From contig JAPLGS010000139.1 of assembly GCA_026390015.1 (NCBI GenBank), forward strand, positions 1 to 64,000: 64,000 bases of DNA, read 5' to 3'. Below, one piece after another: positions 3,969-63,437 of this stretch. The notes under the pieces are model-generated. The model was not told the origin of the DNA, searched no databases, and saw only the letters and a program-made list of their open reading frames with translations. The translations under genes and the position numbers were made by a program. How positions within the stretch are numbered: the first letter of the stretch is position 1; the number at the start of each line of letters is the position of its first letter. This DNA comes from Chloroflexota bacterium (GTDB lineage: Bacteria > Chloroflexota > Anaerolineae > Anaerolineales > Villigracilaceae).

Positions 3969-5654
3969 TTATTTCCTGGCCCCAAACATCAACCACAGTA
4001 AAGTCGCGCCTGCGGCGCCGAGCAATCCTCCCCCAAGCTGGACATTTCCACTATTTAATAACATTACCCCGCTGATCAGGAATGCGGCAAATATAACTCC
4101 ACCTGTCAGTCGGTCGACCGCGCGCCCCAACGTGCGGACTTCACGTGTCACCTGAGGTGCCTGAACCACCAGCCCACCTAATTCGATTTGCGCAAGCAAG
4201 CGGCTGGCTTGAGACGGCAATGCGATAAATGCCTGCACGACATCACCAACCTGCTTGAGAATATTATCCAAACTAAACGCGGATGAAGTTTCCTCTTGTA
4301 CAAGTTTGCTCGCGTATGGAGAAAGTTGTTCCCACAGATTAAAGTTCGGATCAAGTCCTGTGCACATGCCTGAAAGGATAGCCACGGTTCGCACCAACAT
4401 CAGCAGATCATTCGGCACCTGGAACGGCGTCTCCACCATCACGTCACGCACGCGATGACCGATATCACGTACTTCGTTCGGACGCACATTCCGCAGCTCG
4501 CTCATAGACATGCCCCAGAAACGGTCAAAGACAGCGGAGGAAGCCTGTTCCAGTGACTGGGTATCCGCGCCGGGCAATAAAAATCCCAGCTCTTTATATG
4601 ATTTGATTAAACGCGCCGCGTCTCGCGTGCCGATCGCTACAACAGTTTCACGCAAACCCTTTCGCAGATTTTCGGGGACGCGCCCCACCATGCCAAAATC
4701 CACGAAGGTTAATTGCCAGCGCACAGATTTTCGTTTGCTGCCTTTTGTCTGAGGTAATGGCGTGATGAATAAATTTCCCGGGTGCGGGTCGGCGTGAAAA
4801 AAACCATCTTCAAATATTTGTTCGAGATAAGTATCCAATAATTTGCGCGCCACTTCACCGCGGTCAATGCCAGCGGCGGTGATGGCTTTGTAATCGGTGA
4901 TCTTGATCGCGAACACATCCTCGAGTGTAAGCACACGCATCGTGGAAAGACTCAGTACAACGCGCGGCACGTTCACATATTTATCGTTGTTAAAATTCTC
5001 AAAAAAAGTTTCGGCGTTCCCCGCTTCTTTTTGATAATCGATTTCCTCGTACACACTCGCCGAAAATTCACGCAGCAAGGCGGGCACATCCGCATGTTCG
5101 CGCACAGGGCGATACCGCATCAGCCAGCCACCCACCCGCTGTAACGCTGACAGGTCAATGGTCACAATGGCTGCGATGCTTGGGCGCTGGACCTTTACCA
5201 CAACGTTAAGAAAATCCACCTCTTCACCGCGCTTCAATCTGGCTCGATGCACCTGGCCAAGAGATGCGGCTGCGAGCGGATTCTCGTCAAACCATTCAAA
5301 CTTTTCTGTCAACGATGCGCCAAGTTCCAGCTCGGCCAGTTGACGAATATCCGCAAAAGTTTCAGCGGGGACTTCATCCTGTAAATCTGCGAGGGTTTCA
5401 GTGATCTCGGGCGGAAGCACGTCGAGGCGTGAAGAGAGGAACTGCCCGACCTTGATCATCACTCCGCCCATGCGTAAGGCCAGCGCGCGAAAACGCATGG
5501 CCTCGCGGCGAAAACGTTCGGGGCGGGTGCGCTTTGCAAGTTGACGAAATCCGATCTTGCGAACGATCAATTCCCAGTAGATAAAGCGGACGATCATGCC
5601 CGCAAAAAAAGTAAGGATGCGGATATAACGTCCTCGCAAACGGGGTGTTTTCAT
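3969..5654 (-). CDS. ABC1/UbiB family atypical kinase
   Basis: A 561-residue membrane-associated member of the ABC1/ADCK/UbiB family. The diagnostic KxGQ motif appears as VMIKVGQFLSSR near residue 66, the ATP-binding lysine strand as VVVKVQRPS near residue 150, the catalytic-loop equivalent as HADPHPGNLF near residue 288, and the metal-binding motif as VDFGMVGRVP. The C-terminus has a two-segment hydrophobic hairpin ending GATLLWLMFG. Family members support quinone or isoprenoid lipid metabolism and have ATPase activity; no quinone genes lie nearby, so the role here is open. A basic N-terminus contains one hydrophobic stretch. The gene converges on the 73-residue gene. Confidence 0.9.
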   Translation of the reverse strand: MKTPRLRGRYIRILTFFAGMIVRFIYWELIVRKIGFRQLAKRTRPERFRREAMRFRALALRMGGVMIKVGQFLSSRLDVLPPEITETLADLQDEVPAETFADIRQLAELELGASLTEKFEWFDENPLAAASLGQVHRARLKRGEEVDFLNVVVKVQRPSIAAIVTIDLSALQRVGGWLMRYRPVREHADVPALLREFSASVYEEIDYQKEAGNAETFFENFNNDKYVNVPRVVLSLSTMRVLTLEDVFAIKITDYKAITAAGIDRGEVARKLLDTYLEQIFEDGFFHADPHPGNLFITPLPQTKGSKRKSVRWQLTFVDFGMVGRVPENLRKGLRETVVAIGTRDAARLIKSYKELGFLLPGADTQSLEQASSAVFDRFWGMSMSELRNVRPNEVRDIGHRVRDVMVETPFQVPNDLLMLVRTVAILSGMCTGLDPNFNLWEQLSPYASKLVQEETSSAFSLDNILKQVGDVVQAFIALPSQASRLLAQIELGGLVVQAPQVTREVRTLGRAVDRLTGGVIFAAFLISGVMLLNSGNVQLGGGLLGAAGATLLWLMFGARK

Positions 5655-52119: not shown

Positions 52120-53247
52120 ATGACATCCGCAGAAATTATCACCATTGGAACAGAAATATTACTCGGCGAGATCGTGGATACCAACACACGGTATCTTGCG
52201 CGCAATTTGCGCGGACTAGGCATTGACCTGTACCGCACGATCACCATCGGCGATAATGAAGAGCGCATTGCAAGCGCCATTCGTGAATCAATGGAACACG
52301 CAGATATTGTCATCACCACGGGCGGGCTCGGCCCAACGATCGATGACCCCACACGTGAGGCCGTGGCAAAGGCCATGGGCGTGGAAACAGAATTTCGCGA
52401 AGACTTGTGGCAGCAAGTGGTCGCGACCATTGCGCGCTATGGTCGCACGCCATCTGAAAATCAGAAACGGCAGGCGTATGTACCAAAGGGTGCGCTCGGA
52501 ATTCTAAATCCTGTTGGCACTGCTCCATGTTTTATTGTTGAAACAGCGCGTAACGCGATCATCTCTTTGCCTGGTGTCCCAAACGAAATGGAACATGTCT
52601 TACACGAGTCCATCATCCCCTATTTGCAAAAAAGATTCAACCTTAATGAAATTATAAAAGTTCGGGTATTGCATTGCGCGGGACTCGGCGAAGGCATGAT
52701 CGACGAAAAAATTTCGGATCTTGAAATGTTAAGCAACCCCACCGTTGGCCTGGCCGCGCATACCGGCGTTGTGGATGTACGCATCGCCGCGAAGGCAAAA
52801 AGCGAAAGCGAAGCGAATATCATGATCGCGGAGATCGAGTCGCAAGTCCGCGAAAGGCTTGGGAATGTTGTCTTTGGTGCGGATGAAGATAAACTCGAAG
52901 AGGTCACATTGGATCTGATCGCCCACCGCGGCTGGACTCTAACCGCAGTCGAATCAGGTCTCGATGGGATTCTTGCCCGTAAAATTCCACACACCGCATC
53001 TTTTCCTAATCTGACAGCTGACTCATTGATGCAAACATTACGTGCAGCCCAAGCAGAATCGCAAGCAGATATCGCCCTGGGTGTTTCTGTTTATTCCGAA
53101 GATCGCTCCGCTGAAATGGCGATGATCACACCACTCGGCGAAAAAACACATCACATTACATATGGCGGCCCAACGCGCAGTCTGCAATACTGGGCTATGA
53201 ACCTTGCGCTCAACTGGCTGCGGACGAGTGTTGAGGAAATGAAATAA
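52120..53247 (+). CDS. CinA-like protein with degenerate C-terminal amidase domain
   Basis: A 375-residue protein. The N-terminal MoCF/COG1058 domain is intact: AEIITIGTEILLGEIVDTNTRYLARNLRGLGID and VITTGGLGPTIDDPTREAVAKAMG, followed by LPGVPNEMEHV. In full-length CinA this domain has ADP-ribose pyrophosphatase-type activity and the C-terminal domain is a nicotinamide mononucleotide deamidase. Here the C-terminal region reads TLTAVESGLDGILARK where the family has a TxAESCTGG motif with the catalytic serine, so amidase activity is probably lost. The protein is also shorter than usual CinA (about 410-430). The stop codon overlaps the M14 peptidase start by one base. Confidence 0.88.
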   Translation: MTSAEIITIGTEILLGEIVDTNTRYLARNLRGLGIDLYRTITIGDNEERIASAIRESMEHADIVITTGGLGPTIDDPTREAVAKAMGVETEFREDLWQQVVATIARYGRTPSENQKRQAYVPKGALGILNPVGTAPCFIVETARNAIISLPGVPNEMEHVLHESIIPYLQKRFNLNEIIKVRVLHCAGLGEGMIDEKISDLEMLSNPTVGLAAHTGVVDVRIAAKAKSESEANIMIAEIESQVRERLGNVVFGADEDKLEEVTLDLIAHRGWTLTAVESGLDGILARKIPHTASFPNLTADSLMQTLRAAQAESQADIALGVSVYSEDRSAEMAMITPLGEKTHHITYGGPTRSLQYWAMNLALNWLRTSVEEMK

Positions 53248-54224
53248 TGCCCCCAGCACGCCGCAGCAACGATTCGTTCTTGGTGACTGTGGCATGGGTG
53301 CTGAACCTTGCGGGGCTGGGTGGTATCGCACTTGTAACGATCGCGTATTGGGCTTTCCAGCCTGCACTCGCCGCGCCACAAAACTCACAATCCATATCAA
53401 CAGCCAGCCTGCCCGCAACTTATACACCAAATCCAAATTCGCTTTATTTAGCCACGGTCACACCAAATCCACATTCGACATTGATCGTTGTCCAAACGCA
53501 TACGCCTTTTGTACTTGAAAACAGCACCACGCGCCCGGTCACAATCGGGTATTCGGTTTCAGGGCGGCCGATCGAAGTTTATACATTTGGAAATGGAGAA
53601 CGACAACGCATGATCGTGGCCGGCATTCATGGCGGCTATGAATGGAATACCATCGCGCTCGCAGACGAATTGATCAAACATATAAACGAGAATCCGACAA
53701 TCATTCCTTCCGATGTCACGCTTTATATTTTACGCAACATGAATCCAGATGGCGATGCGAGGGATCATGGGATCGATGGCCGCGTCAACGATCATGGAGT
53801 GGATTTGAATCGCAACTTCCCCACCAATTGGGCTGCAGATTGGGATCGCGATGGATGTTGGAATTACGGCCCAACTACGGGTGGAGTTGGCCCAGCCTCC
53901 GAACCAGAAACCCGCGCCGTGATGGGATTCCTGCAAAACCATAGAGTTGAAACATTGATCAGTTATCATAGTGCGGCACTCGGCGTCTTCCCCGGCGGTG
54001 AACCCTGGGAGGAGCTATCGACCCGATTTGCAAAAGCGCTTGCCAAGGAAACAGGATATCCATTTCCGCCAATAGACACAGGCTGCATATTTACCGGCAC
54101 ACTCGCAGACTATGCCGTGGAGTTGGGCGCAGTCGCCGTAGACATGGAATTATCCACACATCAATCTACAGATTATAAAAAGAATTTAAAAGCACTTGAT
54201 GTATTATTAAACTTTCAAAAATAA
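53247..54224 (+). CDS. M14 family zinc carboxypeptidase, membrane-anchored
   Basis: A 325-residue exported metallopeptidase. One N-terminal hydrophobic segment (VAWVLNLAGLGGIALVTIAYW) acts as signal or anchor and is followed by a Thr/Pro/Asn-rich linker of about 50 residues. The catalytic domain has GIHGGYEWN with zinc-ligand His and Glu, VDLNRNFPTNW with substrate-binding Asn-Arg, the third ligand in ISYHSAALG and the catalytic glutamate in AVDMELSTHQS. It probably cleaves peptides or cell-wall stem peptides outside the membrane. The start ATG overlaps the cinA-like stop (TAATG), so the two are translationally coupled. Confidence 0.9.
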   Translation: MPPARRSNDSFLVTVAWVLNLAGLGGIALVTIAYWAFQPALAAPQNSQSISTASLPATYTPNPNSLYLATVTPNPHSTLIVVQTHTPFVLENSTTRPVTIGYSVSGRPIEVYTFGNGERQRMIVAGIHGGYEWNTIALADELIKHINENPTIIPSDVTLYILRNMNPDGDARDHGIDGRVNDHGVDLNRNFPTNWAADWDRDGCWNYGPTTGGVGPASEPETRAVMGFLQNHRVETLISYHSAALGVFPGGEPWEELSTRFAKALAKETGYPFPPIDTGCIFTGTLADYAVELGAVAVDMELSTHQSTDYKKNLKALDVLLNFQK

Positions 54225-54314: not shown

Positions 54315-56297
54315 ATGACTCAAAACGTAAATACCCTATTCACGAATGCCATCGTCCTCACAATGGATGGAAAATTAAACCAATATGACCGCGGCGCTCT
54401 TGCAGTACGAGATGACATGATCGTTGCTGTCGGCGCGGAATCTGAAATAACAAAAGAATATTCGGCTGACGAAACGATTGATTGCGGTGGCAAAGTACTC
54501 ATGCCTGGACTTATCAATGCGCACACGCACGTCCCCATGACTCTCCTGCGCGGTCTCGCCGATGATCTGCGCCTCGATGTCTGGCTGATGGGTTACATGC
54601 TTCCTGTTGAACGTGAATTCGTTACCCCGGAATTTGTTCGGCTTGGAACTTTGCTCGCCTGCGCTGAACAGATCCGCAGCGGCGTGACCACCTTTAATGA
54701 TATGTATTTCTTCGAGGACGCAATCGCCCAGGCCACAGCGGAGGCAGGCATGCGCGCAGTCTGCGGACAAAGCGTGATGAAATATCCCGCGCCCGATGCG
54801 CCCTCATTTGAAATCTCGCTTGCGATGGCGCGTGAATTCATCAAGAAGTGGAAAGGACACCCGCTGATCGTCCCAGCGGTTGCTCCACACGCGCCCTACT
54901 CCACCACACCCGAGATCTTGCGGACATGCGCCAATCTGGCCAGGGAATTCGATGTGCCTTTGCACATTCACATTTCTGAAACTGCGTTCGAAGTTGAAAC
55001 CATGCGAAACGAACAAAGCATGCCTGTCGTTCCGTATGTTAAAAAACAGGGCGTGCTAGAAGCCAAAGTGATCGCCGCGCATTGCGTCCACATTGACTTT
55101 GGCGAAATGAAGACTCTTAAACATGTCAATGCGGGTATCGCGCATAACCCTTCCTCAAATCTAAAACTCGCTTCGGGATTTGCCCCCGTACAAAAAATGC
55201 TTGAGATCGGTCTCAACGTGGGTATTGGCACCGATGGCCCCGCATCAAATAATGATCTCGATATGTTTGAAGAAATGCGCCTGGCCTCGTTCGTTGCGAA
55301 AGCATCCAGCAATGACCCGACAGTCGTTCCTGCAGCGACTGCGCTTCTTATGGCTACCCGCATGGGAGCGCAAGCGCTTCACATTGGACATTTGACAGGA
55401 TCGCTCGAAGCAGGCAAACGCGCCGACTTGATATTGGTGGACACCTCCCCCGTCCACAATTCTCCGCGCTTCCGCCGTGATCCGAACAATGCCTACGCTC
55501 AACTGGTATTCGCATCCAAGTCGACTGATGTGACTGATGTGATGGTTAATGGAAAATGGTTGATGCGTGCGCACGAATTGCTCACGTTGAATGAAGCTGA
55601 GCTTCTCGGGCAGGCGTGTGAAATTGCGCAGAAGATTGACGCCTTCCTGATCGAACGCGAACAATCCATACTTTCAAAATTGATCGCGCTCGGCGGCTCG
55701 ATGGAGCAGGAATCTTTCGAGGTGCAGGTCAAGGTCAAGGTGGCGGAACCAGACCAATTAATTCAGAACATGCAGCGGACTGAGATCGAAATTAACGCAC
55801 ACAAGCATTATCTTCAATATGATGAATATTACATGTTCGAAGACCCAGCGCAGGGACGGCTGCGCTTCCGCGAAGATAATTTGATCAACGAAAAAGGTGA
55901 TGTTGAGAATGTGCGCTCACGCCTAACATTGCTCGGTCAAAAACGAGAAGGCGAGATCGGACATGACGTGCTGCTTTCACGCAGTCGTTTTCTTGCGCCT
56001 GCTGTGCACACATCACGTTTCTATCGAGAATACTTCAAACCAAAACAGGTTATTTCCATTGAAAAAGACCGCCTGCGCTGGCATATCAAATATAAAGAAA
56101 CCGAGTTCTTTATTAATCTCGATCACATAAAAGACCCTGCAGATATGGGGCATTTCCTCGAGATCAAAAGCCGCACATGGAGCCGAAAAGATGCCGATCT
56201 TAAAGCTGAATTGGTCAATGAACTGTTAAACCTGCTTGGCCTGGGTGATGCGGAAACAGTGATCCAAGATTACATCGAGACCTTGTTACCTCAATAG
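54315..56297 (+). CDS. MtaD/SAH deaminase-type amidohydrolase fused to a CYTH domain
   Basis: A 660-residue cytosolic protein with two parts. Residues 1-455 form an amidohydrolase close to 5-methylthioadenosine/S-adenosylhomocysteine deaminases: GLINAHTHVPMTLLRG, HIHISET, AHCVHI and GTDGPASNNDLDMFEEMR hold the metal and substrate ligands. Residues about 465-660 look like a CYTH (adenylate cyclase IV / triphosphatase tunnel) domain: FEVQVKVKV in place of ExExK, GRLRFRED, RSRLTLLG, DRLRWHIKYKETEFFINLDHI and GHFLEIKS. The CYTH N-terminal motif has Gln for the middle Glu, so catalysis may be altered. CAGGAG precedes the ATG. I know no characterised example of this fusion. Confidence 0.85.
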   Translation: MTQNVNTLFTNAIVLTMDGKLNQYDRGALAVRDDMIVAVGAESEITKEYSADETIDCGGKVLMPGLINAHTHVPMTLLRGLADDLRLDVWLMGYMLPVEREFVTPEFVRLGTLLACAEQIRSGVTTFNDMYFFEDAIAQATAEAGMRAVCGQSVMKYPAPDAPSFEISLAMAREFIKKWKGHPLIVPAVAPHAPYSTTPEILRTCANLAREFDVPLHIHISETAFEVETMRNEQSMPVVPYVKKQGVLEAKVIAAHCVHIDFGEMKTLKHVNAGIAHNPSSNLKLASGFAPVQKMLEIGLNVGIGTDGPASNNDLDMFEEMRLASFVAKASSNDPTVVPAATALLMATRMGAQALHIGHLTGSLEAGKRADLILVDTSPVHNSPRFRRDPNNAYAQLVFASKSTDVTDVMVNGKWLMRAHELLTLNEAELLGQACEIAQKIDAFLIEREQSILSKLIALGGSMEQESFEVQVKVKVAEPDQLIQNMQRTEIEINAHKHYLQYDEYYMFEDPAQGRLRFREDNLINEKGDVENVRSRLTLLGQKREGEIGHDVLLSRSRFLAPAVHTSRFYREYFKPKQVISIEKDRLRWHIKYKETEFFINLDHIKDPADMGHFLEIKSRTWSRKDADLKAELVNELLNLLGLGDAETVIQDYIETLLPQ

Positions 56298-56310: not shown

Positions 56311-57318
56311 ATGGAAATATTCAAAAAAATAATGGCAACGATCTTTGCGATCCTCTTCATCATCACCGCCATTGCTGCGATCCTATTTTTCAACTTTGAC
56401 CGAAAAGCATTCACCCCAGAAACTTATCAAAAAGGATTTGCAAAAGCAGATTTTTACAATCAACTGCCAGCCATTATCGCACAAGCCTTGGCTTCTACTA
56501 CGATAAACCAGGAACAACTTCCCATCATGATGCGCGGGATGAGCACGCAAGCCTGGGATGCGTTCTTTCGATCCATGTTGCCGCAGGATGTTCTCAAGAA
56601 GATGGGAGATGATGCATTAAATTCCACTTTTGCTTATTTGAACATGCAAACAAATTCTGCAGAACTATCCCTGACGCCGCTTAAAACAAGCATTGTCAGC
56701 GAATCGGGTACGCGGGCAGTTTTTACACTTTTGAAAACACTTCCAGATTGCACGTTACGCCAGATCGGCCAAATCACATTGGACTTGTTTTCAAGTAGTG
56801 AGATCCAATTTTGCAATCCACCTGAGGATCTGTACCCACTTCTAACACCAATTGTGCAGGGGCAAATGCAAATGGCCGCCCTGGCGATCCCCGATCAATT
56901 CACCATTGTCAACGCGCCGCCTGAAAATGATCGACGCCCAAAATTGCAGACTGCGCGAATGCTCATGCGATTAAGTCCATTATTACCGCTTGGATTATTG
57001 CTGTTGATGACGATCATTGTTGTCAACTCGCTCAAGAGTTGGTTGAACTGGTGGGGCATTCCATTCATCATCACGGGCGGATTTGCGAGCCTGATGGGCT
57101 TCAGCGGCGCGCCTGCAATCGGGATTATTTTTCAGCGTATCCTTGTGAACAGAATGCCAGCTTTCCTGCCCGCGATCATGCTGGATTATGCAGGCAATCT
57201 GGCATCTGCGATGGTACAAACATTACTTAACCCTATTCTATTTCAGGGAATTTTTCTTATGTGTATCGGAGTAGTAATGGCGGCAGGGGCTTACTTTGTT
57301 AAGACAAATAATATTTGA
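56311..57318 (+). CDS. Polytopic membrane protein of unknown function
   Basis: A 335-residue membrane protein. One N-terminal helix (ATIFAILFIITAIAAILFFNF) leads into an external domain of about 190 residues (FTPETYQKGFAKADFYNQLP onward) with three cysteines, and three or four C-terminal hydrophobic segments (LMRLSPLLPLGLLLLMTIIVV onward). The domain arrangement resembles uncharacterised Chloroflexota proteins. It follows the deaminase-CYTH gene by 13 bases and is probably co-transcribed. I cannot assign a function. Confidence 0.8.
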   Translation: MEIFKKIMATIFAILFIITAIAAILFFNFDRKAFTPETYQKGFAKADFYNQLPAIIAQALASTTINQEQLPIMMRGMSTQAWDAFFRSMLPQDVLKKMGDDALNSTFAYLNMQTNSAELSLTPLKTSIVSESGTRAVFTLLKTLPDCTLRQIGQITLDLFSSSEIQFCNPPEDLYPLLTPIVQGQMQMAALAIPDQFTIVNAPPENDRRPKLQTARMLMRLSPLLPLGLLLLMTIIVVNSLKSWLNWWGIPFIITGGFASLMGFSGAPAIGIIFQRILVNRMPAFLPAIMLDYAGNLASAMVQTLLNPILFQGIFLMCIGVVMAAGAYFVKTNNI

Positions 57319-61265: not shown

Positions 61266-61919
61266 ATGTCAGAAGAACTGTATAAGGAAATGGCACAAAG
61301 CATTATTGACGGGGACTCGGATATCTCGACCGAGCTTGCGAAGAAATCCATCGAGCTGAAAATGCATCCGTTGGAAACCATCACGAAGGGATTTGTGGTG
61401 GGCGTGAATTATATCGGCGATCAGTTTGGCTTGGGTGAAGCGTTCCTGCCTGAACTGGTGATGGCTGGCGAGGCGATGAAAGCCGCGATCGCTGTCTTGG
61501 AACCTGAATTGCTCAAGCTCGGAGAAACCCGGCAAATGCTGGGACGTGTAGTCCTCGCAACTGTTGAAGGTGACATTCACGAGATCGGCAAGACCCTCGT
61601 CGGCACGATGTTGAGCGCCTCTGGCTTCGAAGTCGTTGACCTCGGCGTAGATCAACCTGCCGACAATATTATCGGCAAGGCGCTCGAGATCAACGCTGAC
61701 ATCATCGGTATGAGCGCGCTGTTGACAACCACGATGGTACGTCAACGCGAAGTGATCGAAGAGCTGGACAAGGAAGGCTTGCGCCCGCGCATCAAAGTAA
61801 TGGTTGGCGGCGCACCGATCACCCGTGACTGGGTCACGAAGATCAAAGCCGATGGATATTCTGAAGATGCGATCGGCGCAGTAAAGATCGCGAAGGATTT
61901 AGTTGGCAAGGGCAATTAG
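61266..61919 (+). CDS. Corrinoid (B12-binding) methyltransferase protein, MttC/MtbC-like
   Basis: A 217-residue cytosolic protein. A helical cap domain spans 1-88, with GLGEAFLPELVMAGEAMKAA, and the cobalamin domain follows with the base-off signature EGDIHEIGK (DxHxxG; the His is the lower axial ligand), GFEVVDLGVD and VMVGGAPIT. It carries a methyl group from a substrate methyltransferase to a second methyltransferase that uses tetrahydrofolate or CoM. GGAGG precedes the ATG. It lies directly upstream of an MttB-family gene, the usual pairing. Confidence 0.95.
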   Translation: MSEELYKEMAQSIIDGDSDISTELAKKSIELKMHPLETITKGFVVGVNYIGDQFGLGEAFLPELVMAGEAMKAAIAVLEPELLKLGETRQMLGRVVLATVEGDIHEIGKTLVGTMLSASGFEVVDLGVDQPADNIIGKALEINADIIGMSALLTTTMVRQREVIEELDKEGLRPRIKVMVGGAPITRDWVTKIKADGYSEDAIGAVKIAKDLVGKGN

Positions 61920-61985
61920 TAATTCACGTGGAAATTTCAGTACCAATCAGAGAGAGAAGCGAGACATAAATCCTCGGGAGGGAAT

Positions 61986-63437
61986 ATGTCTTCTAAAACT
62001 ATTAAGACCATCAGCAATCCAAAATTAAAATTGGAAGTGTTGACGCAGGAAGAAGTAAAAAAGATTCACGAAACGACTTTACAGATCATTGAAAAAATCG
62101 GGGTGAGATTTCCATCCAAACGCGCGCTGGAGATTTGGGAAGCCAACGGCGCAGACGTGAATTACGAAAAAAAGATCGTGCGTGTCAAACCGCACATCAT
62201 TGAAGATGCGCTAAAAAAAGCTCCACCAGCTTATAAACTTGCAGCGCGCGATCCGCAGCAGGATTTGCTGCTGGATGGCAATCACGTAAATCTCGGAACC
62301 GATGGCTGTGGAGTGGAAGTAATTGACATCAACACAGGCGAAAAGCGTACATCTTGCCTGCAGGATGTACGCGACATTGCCCGAATAGCAGATGCGACAG
62401 AAGAAGTGGCGTTCCATTGGGTAGCTGTCTCAGCTCAAGATGCGCCTGTGGAAGCGCGTGGCTTGCATGAATTAAAAGCCGTTTGGGAGAATTCCACCAA
62501 ACATGTGCAGACCGAGTCTGTTTACAACGTGGAAGAAGCAAAAGCCGCGATTGAGATGGCTGCGTTAATCGTCGGCGGCAAAGATAAACTCCGCGAACGA
62601 CCGATTCTCTCGCTTATGCAATGCACCGCTCCCCCGTTAGGTCATGATGGCGGGAGTTTGGATGCCGCATTATTAGCTGCAGAATTTGGAATCCCAACAG
62701 GATTTATGACCATGGCAGCTTGTGCCACAACTGGCCCAACCACCATGGCTGGAAACCTTGCTGTGGGTAACGCGGAAGTAATCGCAGGAACCGCTCTTTT
62801 ACAACTCGCGTATCCGGGAGCGCCGGTCTTTTACGCAGCGGCGCAAACCGCATCCGATCTGCGCACAGGTGCTTATACAGGCGGCGGCCCCGAGGATTTC
62901 CTCTTCGGCGCAGCGACCAACATCCTCGCGGATTTTTACAACATTCCACTTTCGATGGGCTCATTCGCTACAGGCGCGAAAGAACCAAATTGGCAGGCTG
63001 GTCTTGAAGGTAGTTTATCCACATTCATGGCAAGTATTGTCATGTCGGATATGCTGCTCGGCTGCGGATTCTTGCACGGCAGCCGCATCTGGTCTTTTGC
63101 AGAGATGATGCTGGACTGTGAAATTTTCTCCATCATCCACAAGATGATGCAGGGTATTGAAGTCAATGATGAAACTCTTGCAATAGATTCAATTGCGGCA
63201 GTCGGCCCAGGCGGGCATTACCTCGGTCAGAAACATACCCGCAAACACATGCGCGAGTTATTCATGCCGCAATTCATGGATAGACGCCCGTATTCTGAAT
63301 GGGAAACGAAGAAAGATGATGCCCGCGATTGGGCGGTTTCCAAGGCACGCAAGACATTGAAAGAACATCAACCTGATCCCTTGGACGAAAATATCAGCAA
63401 GGAAATGGATCGAATTATCAAGTCGGTTGAGAAATAA
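61986..63437 (+). CDS. MttB-family methyltransferase, non-pyrrolysine type
   Basis: A 483-residue protein of the trimethylamine methyltransferase (MttB) superfamily with a TIM-barrel fold. LTQEEVKKIHETTLQIIEKIGVRFPSKRALEIWEANGADV is the typical N-terminus and GTDGCGVEVIDINTGEKR the usual next segment. The frame is open throughout with no internal TAG, so the pyrrolysine of true MttB is missing. Homologs of this kind (such as MtgB) demethylate glycine betaine or other quaternary amines and pass the methyl to a corrinoid protein. Substrate is not deducible. GGAGG precedes the ATG. A strong hairpin follows. Confidence 0.92.
   Translation: MSSKTIKTISNPKLKLEVLTQEEVKKIHETTLQIIEKIGVRFPSKRALEIWEANGADVNYEKKIVRVKPHIIEDALKKAPPAYKLAARDPQQDLLLDGNHVNLGTDGCGVEVIDINTGEKRTSCLQDVRDIARIADATEEVAFHWVAVSAQDAPVEARGLHELKAVWENSTKHVQTESVYNVEEAKAAIEMAALIVGGKDKLRERPILSLMQCTAPPLGHDGGSLDAALLAAEFGIPTGFMTMAACATTGPTTMAGNLAVGNAEVIAGTALLQLAYPGAPVFYAAAQTASDLRTGAYTGGGPEDFLFGAATNILADFYNIPLSMGSFATGAKEPNWQAGLEGSLSTFMASIVMSDMLLGCGFLHGSRIWSFAEMMLDCEIFSIIHKMMQGIEVNDETLAIDSIAAVGPGGHYLGQKHTRKHMRELFMPQFMDRRPYSEWETKKDDARDWAVSKARKTLKEHQPDPLDENISKEMDRIIKSVEK

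Follow-up and report, generated by a model that had tools for sequence, protein, structure and literature searches.

The gene at positions 54315..56297 (forward strand) of the window, the stretch of 64,000 nucleotides analysed here, raises the question of what a triphosphate tunnel of the CYTH type might do at the end of an enzyme that resembles the deaminases of S-adenosyl nucleoside salvage. The window belongs to a genome of 4.31 Mb in 177 contigs. The gene starts with ATG, has no internal stops and encodes a deaminase-like amidohydrolase, a linker and a CYTH/TTM domain. Such an amidohydrolase-CYTH fusion had been proposed in an earlier reading made from the DNA letters, and it is borne out: the product is one intact protein of 660 amino acids, both parts of which are matched by Pfam and by predicted fold.

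The partner domains of CYTH that are named in the text of a 2021 survey of the family are of the CHAD and phosphoribulokinase types (PMC8233210), and the words 'amidohydrolase' and 'deaminase' are absent from its main text. No paper on a CYTH-amidohydrolase fusion was found in the open-access literature, which was mostly judged by title. What appears to be new here is that a CYTH domain whose motifs are altered yet under strong selection is attached to a partner that was not found described in that literature.

Architecture of the fused protein

The deaminase domain comprises residues 1-440 (54315..55634, forward strand), as supported by the Pfam Amidohydro_1 match, solved relatives, Foldseek and residue counts. 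It is followed by a linker, residues 441-465 (55635..55709, forward strand), which is mostly helical in the AlphaFold2 model, and by the CYTH/TTM domain, residues 466-657 (55710..56285, forward strand), which is supported by a marginal Pfam CYTH match, the AlphaFold2 model, Foldseek and VIA-align comparisons and the pattern of invariant residues. The sequence-only reading had divided the protein at residue 455. A boundary at about 440/466 fits better because the alignments of homologues that lack the fusion run as far as residues 426-440, these proteins ending no more than about 50 residues later, and because the first strand of the tail begins at residue 468 in the AlphaFold2 model. The linker is as conserved as the enzyme, with a mean conservation of 0.786 compared to 0.784 for residues 61-440, and 3 of its 25 columns are invariant.

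The three stretches that had been quoted as evidence for the CYTH order of motifs are all located in the tail between residues 468 and 619: FEVQVK at 468-473, RLRFRED at 515-521 and GHFLEIKS at 612-619. The motifs of the tail are ExQxK (469-473), RxRED (517-521), R558, KxRxR (584-588), NxD (601-603) and ExK (616-618). The Pfam CYTH match (PF01928) covers residues 469-641 and is collinear with profile positions 3-168 of 179. Its score is 21.3 bits in the whole protein, 23.7 bits in the C-terminal part alone and 23.2 bits in the genome search, the cut-off being 23.2.

Occurrence of the fusion

Among the best 80 of at least 491 stretches found to encode a relative, all 80 loci, which come from other records, contain the full fusion in a single frame with a length of 655-669 residues from the aligned start. 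The recurrence of the same fusion in independent records rules out an assembly artefact as its origin. The records of 79 of these 80 relatives are titled Chloroflexi or Chloroflexota, or are named as members of that phylum, to which the genome of the window is accordingly assigned. One of the 80 fusions, with 68% identity, is found on a 362-kb contig binned as Pyrinomonadaceae (L078), where the usual neighbours are without a match. This case may be due either to misbinning or to transfer between phyla.

When the tail alone is used as the query at E 1e-5, matches are found in 62 of 301 genomes of the phylum, the genome of the window included. The open frames that contain these matches are 658-824 residues long in 61 cases; the remaining match lies in a 347-residue frame that is cut by the contig end. 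In the genus and order, 59 of 61 genomes, again counting that of the window, contain a tail match, and the 60 matches listed are situated in frames of 657-718 residues (59 cases) or 357 residues (one case). At the search thresholds, this type of tail was not found on its own in any of the 301 phylum genomes or the 61 genus and order genomes. Given the presence of the fusion in 59 of the 61 genus and order genomes and 62 of the 301 phylum genomes, the coupling of the deaminase to the tail is likely to be under selection. The deaminase was also used to search 14 genomes that have no tail. Three of them match at E 1e-60; the matching frames are 449-486 residues long and show 34-40% identity, and these three proteins, as well as three paralogues in the genome of the window, have no tail.

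The deaminase domain

The alignment used for the residue analysis contains 124 distinct fused proteins (135 before identical ones were removed), from which one truncated protein and the window protein's own duplicate were omitted. The lowest identity to the window protein in this set is 48% in the deaminase and 37% in the tail.

The description of the N-terminal part as an MTA/SAH deaminase-like enzyme is well founded. Amidohydro_1 spans residues 61-416 with an E value of 3.4e-73, and H70, H72, H219, E222, H256 and D307, which we take to be the metal-binding and catalytic set of the amidohydrolases (HxH, H, E, H, D), do not vary in any of the 124 sequences. The solved relatives are 4f0r, 3lnp, 4dzh, 4dyk and 1p1m (TM0936). 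The MtaD- and DadD-type deaminases among these (4f0r, 4dyk, 1p1m) share the catalytic set, and the identity to solved members and to their neighbours in the match list is 34-40%. The chains of the solved deaminases, however, are 404-472 residues long and too short to contain the tail.

The class of the enzyme, an amidohydrolase of the MTA/SAH type, is clear from its sequence, but the exact substrate is not fixed, because all three NCBIfam models stay below their cut-offs: PRK09045 (TRZ/ATZ hydrolase), the best, scores 456 bits with a cut-off of 540, PRK07228 (5'-deoxyadenosine deaminase) 349 bits with a cut-off of 522, and PRK15493 (MTA/SAH deaminase) 294 bits with a cut-off of 779. The fused protein probably recycles used S-adenosyl nucleosides. 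In some organisms SAH is deaminated and the resulting S-inosylhomocysteine is then cleaved (PMC10978960). An AdoHcyase match (PF05221) is present in 293 of the 301 phylum genomes, a distribution that is compatible with the deamination route but does not discriminate, and the idea that the fusion is linked to a loss of the usual SAH hydrolase was set aside.

The fold of the tail

The AlphaFold2 model of the full protein has a pLDDT of 79.1 and ten strand segments in the tail. The tail modelled alone has a pLDDT of 86.2 and a pTM of 0.82 and forms a confident barrel, which is predicted to be the eight-stranded antiparallel tunnel of the CYTH/TTM fold. The top Foldseek match of the tail model is SaTTM (7ns9; E 6.7e-9, 20% identity). 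In VIA-align, the best Z value is that of 2een (18.2), and other matches include 7ns9 (17.1), class IV cyclase 3n0z (16.6), plant TTM1 7z67 (15.1), YgiF (14.7) and Mediator chains (up to 14.2). The tunnel fold, the absence of which would contradict the assignment to CYTH, is thus present in the prediction, with Z values of up to 18.2 to TTM proteins.

At the level of sequence, the tail is only marginally related to CYTH. With the threshold set to E 0.01, Pfam CYTH recognizes 33 of 66 tails. In 41 relatives the same model finds 17 fused tails, of which 14 are over the cut-off, though nearly all of these relatives carry the tail. Searches of the PDB chain sequences with the tail as the query, profile searches included, gave zero matches up to E 10.

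The sequence-only reading had mentioned the making of cAMP as one of the activities of CYTH domains. The 3n0z match and a weak match of the NCBIfam cyaB model to the last 80 residues (23.7 bits, cut-off 57.95) are consistent with a class IV adenylyl cyclase. This class is marked by HFxxxxExExK, by ExA and by another residue in place of the first tunnel Arg (PMC8233210). In the fused proteins position 464 is Glu, Gln, Arg or Leu and never Phe (0 of 124), the first tunnel Arg is kept as R517, and ExK takes the place of ExA, the latter two in all 124 sequences. Cyclase activity is thus scarcely credible and the suggestion of cAMP synthesis is not supported. The thiamine-triphosphatase signature W/YxRxR (PMC8233210) is absent from the window protein, which has Arg at position 515; the alignment of 124 has Arg here in 111 sequences, Trp in four and Tyr in two.

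Invariant and altered residues of the tunnel

Of the 192 columns of the tail, 25 are invariant in the 124 sequences. They include E469, Q471, K473, R517, R519, E520, D521, R558, R568, K584, R586, R588, N601, D603, E616 and K618. The first motif, the alteration of which had been pointed out earlier, is indeed ExQxK and not ExExK in every one of the 124 tails, and the β8 motif is, equally without exception, ExK and not ExE. Position 540, the equivalent of K69 of SaTTM (the TxKG lysine), is Leu, Ile, Val, Met or Thr. D503 and Y505 form an invariant DxY (124 of 124) that may be the DxY of SaTTM; the profile alignment is off by two residues here and the correspondence is not claimed. A Tyr near the C-terminus, found in 109 of the 124 sequences, may correspond to the plug-helix Tyr of the SaTTM type. 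The changed residues are present in 124 of 124 sequences while the remaining tail diverges, and the decay of a redundant domain was rejected on this ground.

Small CYTH proteins from related genomes were used for comparison. They were taken from the best Pfam matches, a choice by score that favours ordinary CYTH proteins, and 29 of 30 loci were aligned; L153, with a frame of 532 residues, has no match to the seed and was dropped. All 29 keep ExExK and ExE, and at the mapped places all 29 have E, E, K; R, R; K; K, R; D; and E, E. If TxKG and ExE are searched for as stricter text patterns, the count is 28 of 29. Related genomes thus encode two types of CYTH domain, and at two metal-ligand places each type is fixed in a state opposite to that of the other. 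The genome of the window contains, at L001:1492-2100, an ordinary CYTH protein of 202 residues with complete ExExK and ExE motifs, the gene of which stands, judged by eye, behind a biotin-carboxyl-carrier-like gene.

The profile alignment of the tail to the small CYTH proteins extends over 156 columns, but its statistical support is weak (P 0.0066, probability 6%). It pairs EVQVK with EIEAK, RLRFRED with LRLRQD, LTLLG with FTFKG, EKDR with EKFR, NLD with MLD, and FLEIKS with FLEIEG. A deeper profile of the tail aligns to a single CYTH sequence over its last 49 columns only, where the register of NLD and FLEIKS is unchanged. When the ligand residues of the SaTTM type are mapped onto the tail, 9 of 11 fall on invariant columns, compared to 25 of 192 in the tail as a whole (P 1.2e-7), the 11 residues having been picked and mapped by us from alignments after the conservation was seen.

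This concentration of invariance bears on the possibility that the tail is a structural module for protein-protein contacts similar to the Mediator subunit Med18, with its charged tunnel binding protein or nucleic acid. Med18 has the same fold and is not known to have enzyme activity. Some of the Mediator chains among the structural matches are titled Med18. Invariance centred on the residues of the tunnel motifs is, however, what a site for a small ligand would give, and a Med18-like role is rather unlikely.

Metal sites and possible function

Metal 1 of the TTM triphosphatases is described as being held, together with the substrate, by the first Glu of the ExE motif on strand 8, and metal 2, which activates the water, as having the two strand-1 Glu residues and the second Glu of ExE for ligands (PMC4641920, PMC8233210). 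E7 of SaTTM touches metal 1 as well. According to the profile alignment, the equivalent of E7 in the fusion is Q471. The metal-1 Glu is retained as E616. Of the three carboxylates of metal site 2, two are replaced here by Q471 and K618; the site is therefore predicted to be lost, and given this residue mapping it should be gone. A third residue of the acidic patch may be replaced by R558, beside which the alignment has a gap. The change of ExE to ExK on β8 sits in GHFLEIKS, a stretch that the sequence-only reading had quoted with no remark on the change. As a second fixed change, it strengthens the suggestion of that reading that the tail is a sensor or has a changed activity.

The following reading has, in our judgement, an even chance of being correct. 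The fusion would combine a deaminase of S-adenosyl nucleosides with a TTM tunnel that binds a triphosphate-like ligand without hydrolysing it and in this way tunes the deaminase; the substrate of the deaminase, the ligand, the lack of hydrolysis and the regulation are what we infer. The deaminase would act on nucleosides derived from S-adenosyl compounds, namely MTA, SAH or 5'-deoxyadenosine. The C-terminal tunnel, which retains E616 as the Glu of metal site 1 and most of the Lys and Arg residues of the cradle, would bind an NTP, tripolyphosphate or polyphosphate, which would stay intact. The ammonium group of K618 would probably occupy the former place of metal 2. Opening and closing of the tunnel on the ligand might then be passed via the linker helix to the deaminase.

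The chief rival to a non-hydrolysing binder is a changed catalyst of the Vtc4 type, in which the tail transfers phosphate, making or extending polyphosphate or using another acceptor, instead of hydrolysing triphosphate. Vtc4 is described as having basic residues at the four places of the acidic patch and metal site 1 only (PMC4641920). The tail has Q471, K618 and, in a gapped part of the alignment, R558 at three of these four places, while E469 stays. The site-1 Glu and both Arg residues of the cradle are retained, and the 25 invariant columns fit an active site; the invariance of the tail could equally be a sign of a new catalytic site. On the other side, Pfam does not match VTC to the window protein at E 1 or to any of 66 tails at E 0.01, it finds neither an SPX-like nor a membrane domain in the fusion, and the profile alignment to eight VTC proteins (of 13 loci in related genomes) extends over only 43 columns with P 0.011, a value close to that for the 156 columns of the small CYTH proteins. 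Vtc4 is not among the 50 structural matches listed by VIA-align, which is no evidence against such kinship. Phosphate transfer by the tail is unlikely on this balance.

The genome of the window also encodes a VTC-domain protein (L122:1495-2199) directly behind a gene that looks, by eye, like a CotH-type kinase. The presence of this gene suggests that polyphosphate may be synthesized in the organism. A PDB sequence search with this protein gave weak matches only, with E values of 0.09 and above, which were taken as chance.

The making of adenosyl compounds from ATP yields tripolyphosphate. A tail that still acts as a triphosphatase could hydrolyse this product, for example, while its partner clears the spent nucleoside. 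The predicted fold, the Arg and Lys residues of the cradle, the Glu of site 1 and, of site 2, E469 are all in place for such an activity. Mutation of the equivalents of Q471 in AtTTM3 (E4 to Asp or Ala) and YgiF (E6 to Ala) is, however, reported to lower hydrolysis (PMC4641920), and the second Glu of ExE, which is Lys in 124 of 124 fused tails, is described as a requirement of both TTMs and ThTPases for metal 2 (PMC8233210). Furthermore, 35 of 41 relatives have an additional CYTH match outside the fusion, and the 29 such proteins that were aligned have all the residues. Triphosphatase activity of the tail is therefore quite improbable.

The proposal of a non-hydrolysing tunnel can be extended further, although this extension is less likely than not. 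The rewired tunnel might read the state of triphosphate or polyphosphate and allosterically set the recycling of S-adenosyl nucleosides across the Chloroflexota, as a new, non-hydrolytic class of CYTH domains. If true, it would be a direct metabolic wire between the phosphate energy status and the methylation and radical-SAM cycle, and a triphosphate-responsive switch on the removal of SAH, MTA and 5'-deoxyadenosine. What CYTH proteins do in the cell is described as still mostly elusive (PMC8233210). In the fusion, a pathway for the CYTH domain is named by its partner enzyme, and the changed residues predict that the domain binds and does not hydrolyse. The pair of motifs ExQxK and ExK would help to recognize such domains, 33 of 66 of which are missed by Pfam at E 0.01.

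Comparison with known tunnel proteins

The fusion shares its predicted tunnel fold, the RxR and KxR cradle and the site-1 Glu with SaTTM and the archaeal CYTH proteins (7ns9, 2een, 1yem; PF01928), but differs from them in having ExQxK and ExK, in the loss of the TxKG lysine and in the deaminase in front. With Vtc4 (VTC, PF09359), as described in PMC4641920, it has in common the site-1 Glu, a basic residue for the second Glu, the loss of metal site 2, which is predicted for the fusion, and the pair of tunnel Arg residues; its deaminase, however, is attached where Vtc4 has SPX and membrane domains. Plant TTM1 and TTM2 (7z67) are described as CYTH proteins that lack ExExK and ExE and are joined to another enzyme domain (PMC8233210), which makes them similar to the fusion. 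Their partner is of the kinase or phosphoribulokinase type and they belong to another lineage, and the likeness concerns the absence of the two motifs. The CYTH-CHAD proteins of the YgiF type also have CYTH within a two-domain protein, but in YgiF the partner is CHAD, and this protein, which has two metal sites, is described as active in hydrolysing tripolyphosphate (PMC4641920).

Gene neighbourhood

The fused gene is preceded by cinA (52120..53247, forward strand; MoCF_biosynth and CinA_KH by Pfam) and by a gene for an M14 zinc carboxypeptidase-like protein (53247..54224, forward strand; PF00246), and is followed by a gene for what looks, by eye, like a membrane protein (56311..57318, forward strand; no Pfam match at E 0.01). 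Similar genes are found in 63, 67 and 58 of 83 loci, respectively, a set that includes three loci of the same genome (L002, L083, L084) and many truncated ones, and in which the similar genes are not always adjacent. Among the loci of close relatives, a common order is that of cinA, the M14 peptidase gene, the fusion and the membrane protein gene. The seven neighbours from the window were also compared with 26 loci (4.1-8.0 kb) from carriers that are more distant; no neighbour has a match there at E 1e-5, while the fusion itself, as the positive control, matches in 26 of 26. The neighbourhood was therefore rejected as a functional clue. As judged from these sequences, the gene context points to no triphosphate link and gives no firm indication of function.

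In a distant family of carriers (L171:2571-4571 and 4568-5224; L184:2436-4409 and 4414-5043) the fusion is followed by a gene whose N-terminus resembles, by eye, that of dephospho-CoA kinase. In one case this gene overlaps the end of the fusion by four bases, and the overlap suggests co-translation of the fusion with an ATP-using enzyme. Further along the window, at 61266-63437, a corrinoid-protein-like gene is followed by an MttB-like methyltransferase gene beside a GntR-type regulator, all identified by eye. These genes suggest demethylation of the methylamine type.
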